A stretch of DNA of 34,952 bases, taken from NCBI GenBank assembly GCA_902805885.1, contig CADCUM010000050.1, positions 1 to 34,952 on the forward strand, given 5' to 3'. The DNA comes from an uncultured Nocardioides sp. (GTDB lineage: Bacteria; Actinomycetota; Actinomycetes; Propionibacteriales; Nocardioidaceae). The stretch's first letter is position 1. The number at the start of each line of letters is the position of its first letter. The notes under the pieces were generated by a model that was not told where the DNA came from, made no database searches, and saw only the letters and a list, made by a program, of their open reading frames with translations. Below, piece after piece: positions 1,723 to 22,773 of the stretch. The position numbers and the translations under genes were made by a program.

Positions 1723-1728
1723 ACCCTA
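1723..1728 (-). promoter_or_regulatory. -10 hexamer TAGGGT of trmI, sharing its TAG with the protease stop codon
   Basis: On the minus strand the hexamer TAGGGT ends 7 nt before the trmI ATG. Its first three bases (1728-1726) are the TAG stop of the site-2 protease gene. There is no SD in the 7-nt interval. Transcription would be expected to start at or next to the A of ATG. Confidence 0.65.
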
Positions 1729-2889
1729 GTGCGCCGCCTGGCGGAAGGCCCGGTCGACGTCGGCGGTGGCCAGCACGCCGAAGATGCGTCCGTCGTCCTC
1801 GACGAGGAGGTACTCGTCCGCCGGGCGCCGGCTGATCGCCAGGATCAGCTCCTCGCCGGCGAGCGAGGCCGGGAGCTGCAGGCTGTCGTCGAGGGTGCGG
1901 GCCACGGTGGAGACGGGCACCCAGGGCCGCCTGTCCTCGGGCATCGCGAGGACGGAGGACTCGCTGACGATGCCCAGCGGGTCGCCGGACGGGGTCACGG
2001 TGACGATGCTGCCGGCCTCGGCCTCGCGGGCACGCCGTACGGCTTCGGCGAGCGGGATGTCCGGGGGGACGGTGAGGGTACGGCGGGCCAGGGGGCGAGC
2101 GACCAGTGCCGGCATCCGCCGACGCAGCCGGGCGTGGGCCATGGCCGCCGTCGCCCCCGTCCAGAGGAACAGTCCGAGGATGAAGACGAGGACGAGGTCG
2201 AACAGGGTCGCCGGCTGGCCGGTCACGCGCTCCTGGACCAGCGGCCAGGCGAGGAGGGCCAGGGCGGTGGCGCGGCCGCCCCACCCCGCGACGATGGTCC
2301 CCCGGTGCTGGTCGCCGCTGGCCCCCCAGACCACGGCCTTCAGCACGCGGCCGCCGTCGAGCGGCAGGCCCGGCACGAGGTTGAGGACGCCGATGAGGAG
2401 GTTGGACCCAGCGAGGCCGCCGACGGCGAGCCGGACCAGGCCGTCAGGGACGACGAACCACAGCGCCAGGGCGGCCACGCCGACGCCGAGCGAGGTCAGC
2501 GGACCCACCACCGCGATGACGAGCTCGTGGCGCGGGCGGCGCGAGGCACCGTCGATCTCGGTCATGCCGCCCAGGAAGTGGAGCGTGATCGAGGTGACCC
2601 CGTAGCCCAGCCGTTGCGCTGCGATCGCGTGCGACGCCTCGTGCAGCAGCACCGAGAGGTAGAGCACGACCGCGAAGGCCAGCCCCGCGACGTACTTCCA
2701 CAGGCCGAGCCCGGGCTGCTCGAGCTCGATCCGGGGGGCGAGGGCGTAGGAGATCAGCGCCGCGATGACGAACCAGGAGCCGGTCACCAGGACGTCGATG
2801 CCGGCGATCGAGCCGACGCGGAACGTGCCGCGCGGGCGCCCGGCGGCGCGGGCGGGCTCGGGCTCGTCGGTCGTGGCGGGTCCGGGCAC
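1726..2889 (-). CDS. Site-2 protease family (M50) zinc metalloprotease with CBS domains
   Basis: Predicted intramembrane zinc protease of 387 residues. The active-site HExxH is HEASH at 83-87 in a membrane helix. The third ligand motif NLVPGLPLDGG is at 170-180, and about six hydrophobic segments are visible. A cytosolic CBS pair follows at about 250-380, as in SpoIVFB-like/CBS subfamily members. The substrate cannot be told from sequence. A longer reading frame exists upstream but would run through the divergent nuclease gene. I chose GTG 2889 because a TACGCT hexamer (2896-2901) sits 6 nt before it and the protein aligns from there (PRGTFRVGSIAGIDVLVT). No SD is seen, so it is predicted leaderless. 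The stop is TAG, rare in this window, and lies inside the trmI -10. Confidence 0.9.
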   Translation of the reverse strand: MPGPATTDEPEPARAAGRPRGTFRVGSIAGIDVLVTGSWFVIAALISYALAPRIELEQPGLGLWKYVAGLAFAVVLYLSVLLHEASHAIAAQRLGYGVTSITLHFLGGMTEIDGASRRPRHELVIAVVGPLTSLGVGVAALALWFVVPDGLVRLAVGGLAGSNLLIGVLNLVPGLPLDGGRVLKAVVWGASGDQHRGTIVAGWGGRATALALLAWPLVQERVTGQPATLFDLVLVFILGLFLWTGATAAMAHARLRRRMPALVARPLARRTLTVPPDIPLAEAVRRAREAEAGSIVTVTPSGDPLGIVSESSVLAMPEDRRPWVPVSTVARTLDDSLQLPASLAGEELILAISRRPADEYLLVEDDGRIFGVLATADVDRAFRQAAH

Positions 2890-2956
2890 GTTTCGAGCGT
2901 AGCCAACGGCGGGGACGCCCCCGGTGTCCCCGGGCTCGCCTAGGGTCGGCGGCGTC

Positions 2957-3913
2957 ATGACAACCACCCCTCCTCCGGGCACCTCCGACGACGTGCCGAG
3001 CCCCGTGCCGGACCCGTCCCCCGCGGCGCGTCTCGGCACTCCGGTCGACGGTGTCGAGGTGCTGGCGGCCCTGTCGCCCAGCCGGGCGGCCGACTTCCTC
3101 ACCTGCCCGCTGATGTATCGCCTCCGGACGATCGACCGCCTGCCCGAGGAGCCCTCCCCCGCCGCGGTCCGCGGCACCGTCGTCCACCAGGTGCTGGAGG
3201 ACCTCTTCGACCTGCCCGCCGCCGCCCGGACCCCGTCTCGCGCCGCCGACCTGCTGGCGCCGGCCTGGGAGGCTGTGCTGCACGACGAGCCCGCGCTCGC
3301 GGAGATGTTCGGCGGCGAGGGCCCGGACGTGTCGGCCTGGCTGGCCTCGTGCCGCGAGGTGCTCGACCGGTGGTTCACCCTCGAGGACCCCCAGCGGCTC
3401 GAGCCGGCGGAGCGCGAGCTCTACGTCGAGACCCTGCTCGACTCACGCCTGCTCCTCCGCGGCTTCGTCGACCGGGTCGACGTGGCGCCCGACGGGCGGA
3501 TCCGCGTGGTGGATTACAAGACGGGCGGGTCACCAGCCGTCGGCTACGAGGCGAAGGCCCTGTTCCAGATGCGGTTCTACGCCCTCGTCATCTGGCGCAC
3601 CCGCGGCGTCGTGCCCTCCGTCCTGCAGCTGGTCTACCTCGGCAACGGCGAGATCCTCCGCTACGAGCCGGACGAGGCCGACCTGCTCGCCACCGAGCGC
3701 AAGGTGCAGGCCATCTGGGAGGCGATCCGGCACGCCGAGGAGTCCGGCGACTGGCGCGAGAGCCCGTCCCGGATGTGCGACTGGTGCTCGTTCAAGCCCC
3801 ACTGCCCGGCGTACGGCGGCACTCCCCCGCCCCTGCCCGTGCGCGGCGTGCCGCAACCCGACCCCTCGGGGGACCTCGACACCGACGAGACCGTCACGAC
3901 GTCGGTCCCCTGA
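2957..3913 (+). CDS. RecB-family PD-(D/E)XK exonuclease with Fe-S staple cysteines
   Basis: Stand-alone Cas4/AddB-like nuclease domain protein (PDDEXK_1 family), 318 residues. The core motifs are visible: GTVVHQVLEDLF at 73-84 (His of motif I), GFVDRVDV at 169-176, the metal-binding VVDYKTG at 184-190 (D186, K188), and QMRFYA at 204-209. One cysteine near the N-terminus (C50 in DFLTCPLMYRL) and three near the C-terminus (C274, C277, C283) match the iron-sulfur staple of AddB/Cas4 nucleases. The biological substrate is not established. Its mycobacterial counterpart next to trmI is called RecB-like. ATG 2957 is preferred over in-frame GTG 2924 because TAGGGT (2941-2946) lies between them, 10 nt upstream of the ATG. 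It is divergent from the protease gene over 67 bp. Confidence 0.9.
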   Translation: MTTTPPPGTSDDVPSPVPDPSPAARLGTPVDGVEVLAALSPSRAADFLTCPLMYRLRTIDRLPEEPSPAAVRGTVVHQVLEDLFDLPAAARTPSRAADLLAPAWEAVLHDEPALAEMFGGEGPDVSAWLASCREVLDRWFTLEDPQRLEPAERELYVETLLDSRLLLRGFVDRVDVAPDGRIRVVDYKTGGSPAVGYEAKALFQMRFYALVIWRTRGVVPSVLQLVYLGNGEILRYEPDEADLLATERKVQAIWEAIRHAEESGDWRESPSRMCDWCSFKPHCPAYGGTPPPLPVRGVPQPDPSGDLDTDETVTTSVP

Positions 3914-21329: not shown

Positions 21330-22759
21330 CAGGACCGGTCGAGCGGGCGACCCTCGTGGAACCCGGCGGCCGACTGCACGCCGATCACGGCGCGTTCGTG
21401 CAGCTCGGCGAGCGTGCGCGCACCGGCGTACGTCCCGGCCGACCGGACCCCGGCGCAGATCTGGTCGATCAGGTCCTCGACGCCGGGGCGCTGGGGGTCG
21501 AGGTACATCCGGGAGGAGGAGATGCCCTCCTCGTAGAGGCTCTTGCGGGCGCGGTCGTACGACGACTCCCCCGCCGTGCGGTGGGCCACGGCTCGTGCGG
21601 ACGCCATCCCGAAGGACACCTTGTAGGCGCGTCCCTCCGCGTCGAGCATGAGGTCGCCGGGCGACTCGTGGGTCCCGGCGAACCAGGAGCCGATCATCAC
21701 CGCGGACGCGCCGGCGGCCAGGGCGAGGGCGACGTCGCGCGGGTGGCGTACTCCCCCGTCGGCCCAGACGTGCTTGCCGAGCTCGCGGGCCGCGGCGGCG
21801 CACTCCAGGACGGCCGAGAACTGGGGACGGCCCACGCCGGTCATCATGCGGGTGGTGCACATCGCGCCGGGGCCGACGCCGACCTTGACGATGTCGGCAC
21901 CCGCCTCCACCAGCGCGCGCGTGCCCTCCGCCGAGACCACGTTGCCGGCGGCGACGGGGACCGAGGGACCCAGGGCGCGTACGGCGGCGAGCGCGTCGAG
22001 CATGCGGTCCTGGTGTCCGTGGGCGGTGTCGACCACGAGGCAGTCCACCCCGGCGCGGAGGAGGTCGCGCGCCCGGGCGGCGACGTCGCCGTTGACGCCG
22101 ACGGCTGCGGCGATCCGCAACCCGCCGGACGCGTCGAGGGCCGGGGTGTAGAGCGTGGCGCGCAACGCCCCCCGTGCGGTGAGCACCCCCACGAGCTCCC
22201 CGGCGGAGTCGACGGCGACGGCCAGCGGCGCCTTGGCCCGCTCCAGGGCGTCGTAGACCTCGCGCGGCTCGGCGTCCGCCGAGACGGTCACCACCGCGTC
22301 GTTCATCACCTGCCCGACCTGCGCGAAGCGGTCGACGTCGGCGCAGTCGGCCTCGGAGACCACGCCCACCGGCATTCCGTCCTCGACCACCACGGCGGCC
22401 TTGTGGGCCCGCTTGGGGATCAGCGCCAGCGCCTCGGCGACCGTCTGCGTGGGGTGCAGCTCGATCGGGGTGTCGAAGACGTGGTGGCGCCGCTTCACCC
22501 AGGCCACCACGTCGGCGACGACAGGGATCGGGATGTCCTGGGGGATCACCGTGATCCCGCCGCGCCGGGCGACCGTCTCCGCCATCCGCTTGCCGGCGAT
22601 GGCGGTCATGTTGGCGACCACCAGCGGCAGCGTCGCGCCGGTGCCGTCCGAGGTGGCGAGGTCGACGTCGTAGCGGCTCCCGACGGCGGAGTGCCTCGGG
22701 ACCATGAAGACGTCGTCGTAGGTCAGGTCGTGGGAGGGCCGGGCGTCGAGGAACTGCAC
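21326..22759 (-). CDS. guaB1: GuaB1-type IMPDH/GMP reductase with CBS domains
   Basis: 477 residues of the IMPDH/GMPR superfamily. The (beta/alpha)8 barrel starts with [18 protein letters not shown] and is interrupted by a CBS pair (about 95-205). It resumes with the NAD(P)-binding [11 protein letters not shown], the phosphate-loop [17 protein letters not shown] with catalytic C301, and [14 protein letters not shown]. The mycobacterial GuaB1 of this family has been shown to be a CBS-containing GMP reductase, so deamination of GMP to IMP is the likely activity. GTG 22759 is 8 nt after TAGAGT (22768-22773) with no SD. The first three bases of that hexamer are the stop of the upstream membrane-protein gene. 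It is coupled to the sulfotransferase gene by a 4-nt overlap. Confidence 0.9.
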
Positions 22760-22767
22760 GTGCGGTG

Positions 22768-22773
22768 ACTCTA
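22768..22773 (-). promoter_or_regulatory. -10 hexamer TAGAGT of guaB1, sharing its TAG with the upstream stop codon
   Basis: Minus-strand TAGAGT ends 8 nt before the guaB1 GTG. Its TAG (22773-22771) is the stop codon of the membrane-protein gene. Third instance of this arrangement in the window. Confidence 0.6.

Follow-up and report, generated by a model that had tools for sequence, protein, structure and literature searches.

Stop codons within predicted leaderless -10 elements at gene junctions of an uncultured Nocardioides genome

In short codirectional gaps between genes, the stop codon of the upstream gene can overlap the Shine-Dalgarno motif of the gene that follows, and stop codon usage is shifted there, as described by Palleja et al. 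(2009; PMC2784483, considered here, like the other papers cited, from part of its text). Another well-described arrangement is that of leaderless actinobacterial genes, in which a -10 element of the form TANNNT lies beside the start codon (PMC3160421, PMC4633059, PMC8079986, PMC6742748). In Streptomyces lividans, TAnnnT was reported in 93.4% of leaderless promoters, with leaderless messages making up 17% of transcripts (PMC8079986). By analyzing a stretch of 34,952 nucleotides (nt) from an uncultured Nocardioides sp. (contig CADCUM010000050.1, positions 1 to 34,952; hereafter the window), whose source genome has Nocardioides as its nearest named relatives, three codirectional junctions were identified at which the TAG stop codon of one gene forms the first three bases of a TANNNT hexamer just upstream of the next start codon.

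All three junctions lie on the minus strand and were read directly from the sequence, as the original prediction had described them. Before trmI, TAG (1728-1726) opens TAGGGT (1728-1723), followed by a 7 nt spacer and ATG 1715; before the DUF3090 gene, TAG (12946-12944) opens TAGGGT (12946-12941), again followed by 7 nt and ATG 12933; and before guaB1, TAG (22773-22771) opens TAGAGT (22773-22768), followed by 8 nt and GTG 22759. In every case the TAG terminates the reading frame of the gene before it, the stop-to-start distance is 10-11 nt, and none of the junctions has a stop/start overlap of the RTGA type. The features concerned are as follows.

1723..1728, minus strand: TAGGGT, predicted -10 of trmI, with the protease stop as its first three bases (sequence and orthologues)
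630..1715, minus strand: trmI, predicted leaderless, ATG 1715 (Pfam TrmI-like_N and GCD14)
1726..2958, minus strand: M50 protease with CBS, stop TAG, start uncertain (gene call and Pfam; the Peptidase_M50 and CBS matches are on the longer open reading frame 1726-3378)
12941..12946, minus strand: TAGGGT, predicted -10 of the DUF3090 gene, with 12946-12944 as the phosphatase TAG stop (sequence and orthologues)
12352..12933, minus strand: DUF3090 gene, ATG 12933, alternative in-frame start GTG 12942 (Pfam DUF3090)
12944..13663, minus strand: histidine phosphatase gene, stop TAG (Pfam His_Phos_1 on open reading frame 12944-13732, and gene call)
22768..22773, minus strand: TAGAGT, predicted -10 of guaB1, with 22773-22771 as the TAG stop of the upstream gene (sequence and orthologues)
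21326..22759, minus strand: IMP dehydrogenase-family gene (guaB1), GTG start (Pfam IMPDH and CBS)
22771..23403, minus strand: gene upstream of guaB1, stop TAG (gene call)

Gene calling by codon usage yielded 36 genes in the window, of which 31 stop with TGA, four with TAG and none with TAA, and one runs off the end. Thus, three of the four TAG stops are embedded in a hexamer, also in agreement with the original prediction. The third base after the stop is T at 4/4 TAG stops and at 2/31 TGA stops.

The most probable explanation, to which a probability of roughly 0.8 is assigned, is that a conserved TANNNT 6-8 nt before the start codon would act as the -10 of a leaderless gene, with the TAG or TAA that opens it doubling as the in-frame stop of the gene upstream. 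The hexamer is likely to be such an element, judging from its position and spelling. In a 601.5-kb sample of the same genome, 102 of 574 starts were preceded by TANNNT at a spacing of 6-8 nt, and the hexamer occurred only six times at spacings of 3-5 and 9-13 nt combined, and this layout matches that reported for leaderless actinobacterial genes. Moreover, trmI and guaB1 in the window begin with ATG and GTG, respectively, and have no Shine-Dalgarno motif at the junction. A single search for a transcription start map of Nocardioides gave none, judging by titles and abstracts.

Comparison of orthologous junctions indicates that the hexamer stays in place and the stop codon moves. Of 80 DUF3090 loci from named Nocardioides genomes, 79 could be used (one is cut at its start), and the hexamer was detected in all 79, at 6-7 nt from the start in 78 and, as judged by eye, at 10 nt in one. 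In 66 of these loci, the phosphatase gene ends on the first three bases of the hexamer (63 TAG and three TAA) and the two are thus fused. In the 13 unfused loci, the stops are TGA (nine) or TAG (four); relative to the first base of the hexamer, they begin 8-104 nt upstream or 5-7 nt downstream. Hexamer columns T1, A2, G4 and T6 are constant in all 78 aligned loci and the flanking columns vary; for T1, A2 and T6 this also holds among the 13 unfused loci. The last T is therefore conserved although no stop codon needs it.

Similar patterns were observed at the two other junctions. For trmI, the 30 best-scoring loci among 40 genomes searched were examined, with in-frame starts scanned since the N-terminus of the protein varies, and the hexamer was found in 28. 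The state of the junction was counted in 27 of these 28 (locus L224, whose upstream frame is noncoding, was left out together with the two hexamer-free loci); the upstream frame is coding in all 27, and ten are fused and 17 unfused (15 TGA and two TAG). Among the closest relatives, seven retain the hexamer (TAGGGT in six and TAGTCT in one) and have TGA as the upstream stop, 15-54 nt before it; in an eighth the hexamer was not seen. For guaB1, 25 of 30 loci were used, the other five being a paralogue at about 36% identity, and all 25 carry the hexamer; among the 12 with clear upstream coding (13 with scores below 40, a cutoff set by eye, were left out), six are fused and six unfused (four TGA, one TAA and one TAG). 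Fused stops are TAG or TAA by necessity, and unfused stops over the three junctions are mostly TGA (28/36). On the trees, at least five changes between the fused and unfused states are needed for trmI and at least eight for DUF3090. Because the hexamer was kept while fusion was repeatedly gained or lost, it is the fixed point onto and off which stops move. These findings support the earlier claim that an internal promoter may dictate the choice of the upstream stop, with a qualification discussed below.

The association of stop and hexamer is real and exceeds chance. In the whole assembly (3.11 Mb, incomplete at 77.7%), the pattern TAGNNTN{6,9}RTG occurs 511 times, compared with 183 for the reversed pattern. 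Codon-usage gene calls in the 601.5-kb sample, with pieces shorter than 3 kb and masked stretches left out, gave 600 genes and 344 codirectional junctions. TAG was used at 9/13 junctions with a gap of 9-11 nt, versus TAG or TAA at 31/232 junctions with other gaps of at least 0 nt (Fisher p=1.6e-5); without the window, the corresponding values were 7/11 and 29/221 (p=2.6e-4). The DUF3090 junction is not among the nine because the gene caller chose GTG 12942 over ATG 12933. All nine TAG junctions have the hexamer and eight of them lack a Shine-Dalgarno match, and all four TGA junctions lack the hexamer and three of them have such a match. The commonest tight junction in this genome is a 4-nt overlap (69 junctions), in which the stop is always TGA, as the overlap demands. 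In a genus sample of other Nocardioides genomes (588 kb, mostly from four complete ones), TAG or TAA was used at 6/11 gaps of 9-11 nt versus 42/241 other gaps (p=0.008). In the 80 named Nocardioides loci, with the DUF3090 junction removed, gaps of 9-11 nt comprised 23 TAG with the hexamer, two TAG without it and eight TGA without it, and other gaps of 0-60 nt comprised 46 TAG and 219 TGA; since all of these loci cover one gene region, they represent orthologues and not independent genome samples. Thus, the predicted enrichment of TAG stops that belong to a TAGNNT shortly upstream of the following start was observed in the source genome and, more weakly, in the genus; the samples from the order, class and phylum were too small to reveal the effect or to argue against it.

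Several observations weigh against this explanation or limit its reach. Two of the 30 trmI loci have no hexamer at an in-frame start. A -35 element of the form TTGAC was found at none of the positions 8-31 nt before the hexamer in the 102 hexamer genes of the source genome. The DUF3090 gene of the window has GGAGG (12954-12950) 7 nt before the in-frame GTG 12942, which would fit leadered initiation. Outside the window, only 7/66 TAG stops are fused, or 7/32 among those with a codirectional neighbour, so the window is unusually rich in fused TAG stops. At the levels of order, class and phylum, sampled in 20-kb pieces (those cut from the very beginning of contigs yielded few short gaps), hexamer junctions were fused in 0/6, 0/2 and 1/5 cases, respectively, numbers too small to judge. 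Finally, part of the TAG association is automatic, which is the qualification that applies to the dictation of stop choice by the promoter. As for the -35 region, the 102 predicted hexamer promoters appear to be without a recognisable element of this kind, and the -35 element is weak or optional in actinobacteria.

The automatic part of the association leads to the strongest rival explanation, to which somewhat less than an even chance is given: a -10 that begins with TAG would terminate a third of the frames that run into it, and nothing further favours fusion or ties the choice of stop to the promoter. TAG (third base G) is the commonest spelling anyway in hexamers that lack a codirectional neighbour within 60 nt (54/71 in the source genome and 29/49 in the genus), so that a TAG stop is available whenever an upstream frame enters in phase and no separate selection for fused stops is required. 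On the other hand, of the upstream genes that reach the hexamer, 13 stop in it and four pass it (9:3 in the source genome and 4:1 in the genus), although a ratio of 1:2 would be expected from phase only (p=3.4e-4). The four passing genes all lie at +13/+14, and selection against long overlaps could yield the same excess; the excess is thus compatible both with selection for fusion and with nothing more than a disadvantage of upstream genes that run far into the next one.

The position of the stop might also be explained by signals for translation. If the bases around it represented the ribosome-binding motif of the next gene (GGTGA in TAGGGTGA, or GGAGG before GTG 12942), TAG would simply fit that motif. 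Such overlaps are documented (PMC2784483), the GGAGG of the window's own DUF3090 gene is suitably placed, and among the 78 DUF3090 relatives GGTGA occurs in 39 and the in-frame GTG in 50. However, GGTGA is absent from the other 39 and GTG from the other 28, a GGAGG-like sequence lies just upstream in only two of the 78, while T1, A2 and T6 are constant in all of them, and no motif of this type exists at the trmI or guaB1 junction of the window. This explanation is therefore considered highly improbable; as a general reason it is excluded by the column conservation, and it may still apply to the DUF3090 start of the window itself. Alternatively, a distance of about 10 nt between the stop and the next start could be maintained to let terminating ribosomes restart on the downstream gene, with or without leaderless transcription, and the codirectional order, the distance and the known coupling of close gene pairs (PMC6728339, PMC4633059) are in line with such reinitiation. 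Many orthologues nevertheless keep the hexamer with the stop 13-104 nt before it, which implies that closeness of stop and start is not required, and the commonest tight form in the source genome is the 4-nt TGA overlap; reinitiation is thus regarded as improbable.

If the hexamer does act as a leaderless -10, RNA polymerase would open the DNA there and the message would begin at the start codon or within a base or two of it. The preferred -10 spelling, TAG, would then cap any upstream frame that enters in phase. The promoter would come first and the stop codon would be captured afterwards, and two genes about 10 nt apart could therefore avoid sharing one message. Because a TAG- or TAA-type -10 ends any in-phase upstream frame, the choice of stop would be a by-product of promoter spelling. 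The further suggestion that a ribosome terminating upstream interacts with the next promoter found no support, as ribosomes decode the stop from RNA and the hexamer would act as DNA. A broader proposal can be put forward tentatively and is considered less likely to hold than to fail: that fusion of stop and -10 is a selected type of junction in leaderless-rich actinobacteria, favoured over read-through and free spacing, that a considerable share of TAG usage is determined by promoter architecture instead of by the preference of release factors, and that many close 'operon' junctions are in fact promoter junctions.

Beyond the genus, DUF3090 loci of the class were also compared, using the 30 best-scoring of 57 genomes with a match (from 59 class genomes). 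The hexamer was detected in 22/30, and eight of these 22 are fused, seven of them outside the source genome and in five other families; two of the fused loci (L261 and L283) have weak upstream coding scores. The remaining eight loci (L263, L264, L265, L267, L271, L272, L276 and L277) have a GGAG/GGAA-like sequence in place of the hexamer, as judged by eye, which suggests a possible switch between leaderless and leadered starts. In a plasmid stretch of Deinococcus deserti, few genes were closely spaced. Within the genus, a second recurrent fused junction was noticed about 6.5-7.5 kb upstream of DUF3090 (in Nocardioides loci such as L001, L003, L013 and L022), where TAGGCT or TAGGAT contains the upstream stop and the next gene begins GTGGGCATCCAG or nearly so.

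The window also contains hexamers and a TAG stop that are separate from each other, and two further features illustrate this.

11580..11582, minus strand: fourth TAG stop (SCO1664-family gene), 45 nt before mshC, outside any correctly spaced -10; its context reads TAGTCT (11582-11577)
11542..11547, minus strand: TAGGCT 7 nt before mshC ATG 11534, unfused to any stop, shown for contrast

Neither the SCO1664-family gene nor the gene upstream of guaB1 has a Pfam match, so this family name and the description of the latter as a membrane protein are those of the original prediction only. Of the 35 window genes examined, 15 have TANNNT at 6-8 nt from an in-frame start, 13 of them at the called start, and the window is thus rich in predicted leaderless starts. 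The starts concerned are 1715, 4601, 9305, 11534, 12933, 13663, 13696, 15504, 15568, 20050, 22759, 24910, 28020 and 31398, and the fifteenth lies 69 nt inside the called protease start. The histidine phosphatase gene has a predicted leaderless hexamer of its own (TAGGGT, first base 13676).

If the promoter explanation is true, the choice of a stop codon would be set in part by the promoter of the neighbouring gene. Gene pairs 9-11 nt apart with TAGNNT would be separate transcription units, which operon prediction based on distance would join. The fused motif may also aid start annotation, and in the window it favours ATG 12933 over the GTG 12942 chosen by the codon-based caller. Moreover, lineages with a Shine-Dalgarno-like sequence instead of the DUF3090 hexamer make a change between leaderless and leadered initiation testable.

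No description of a stop codon within a -10 element was found in the titles, opening parts of abstracts and passages considered from open-access papers; subscription papers were outside this search, and an earlier description is therefore possible. In hexamer, spacing, ATG/GTG start and lack of a Shine-Dalgarno motif, the junctions resemble leaderless actinobacterial promoters, but an upstream stop inside the hexamer is not mentioned in the parts of the corresponding accounts considered here (PMC4633059, PMC8079986, PMC6742748, PMC3160421). They also share with the RTGA stop-start overlap of translational coupling a compact codirectional layout that forces one stop codon, TGA in that case, although the RTGA stop overlaps a start codon and not a promoter (the 69 overlaps in the source genome being of this type). 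The closest precedent is the overlap of stop and Shine-Dalgarno motif, in which a signal of the downstream gene likewise overlaps the upstream stop and shifts stop usage. According to the part of that study considered here, the known signal is an RNA motif at gaps of 5-8 nt (10 nt with TAGGAGG in Bacillus subtilis), whereas the present junctions have a predicted DNA promoter element at gaps of 9-11 nt and no conserved Shine-Dalgarno motif (PMC2784483).

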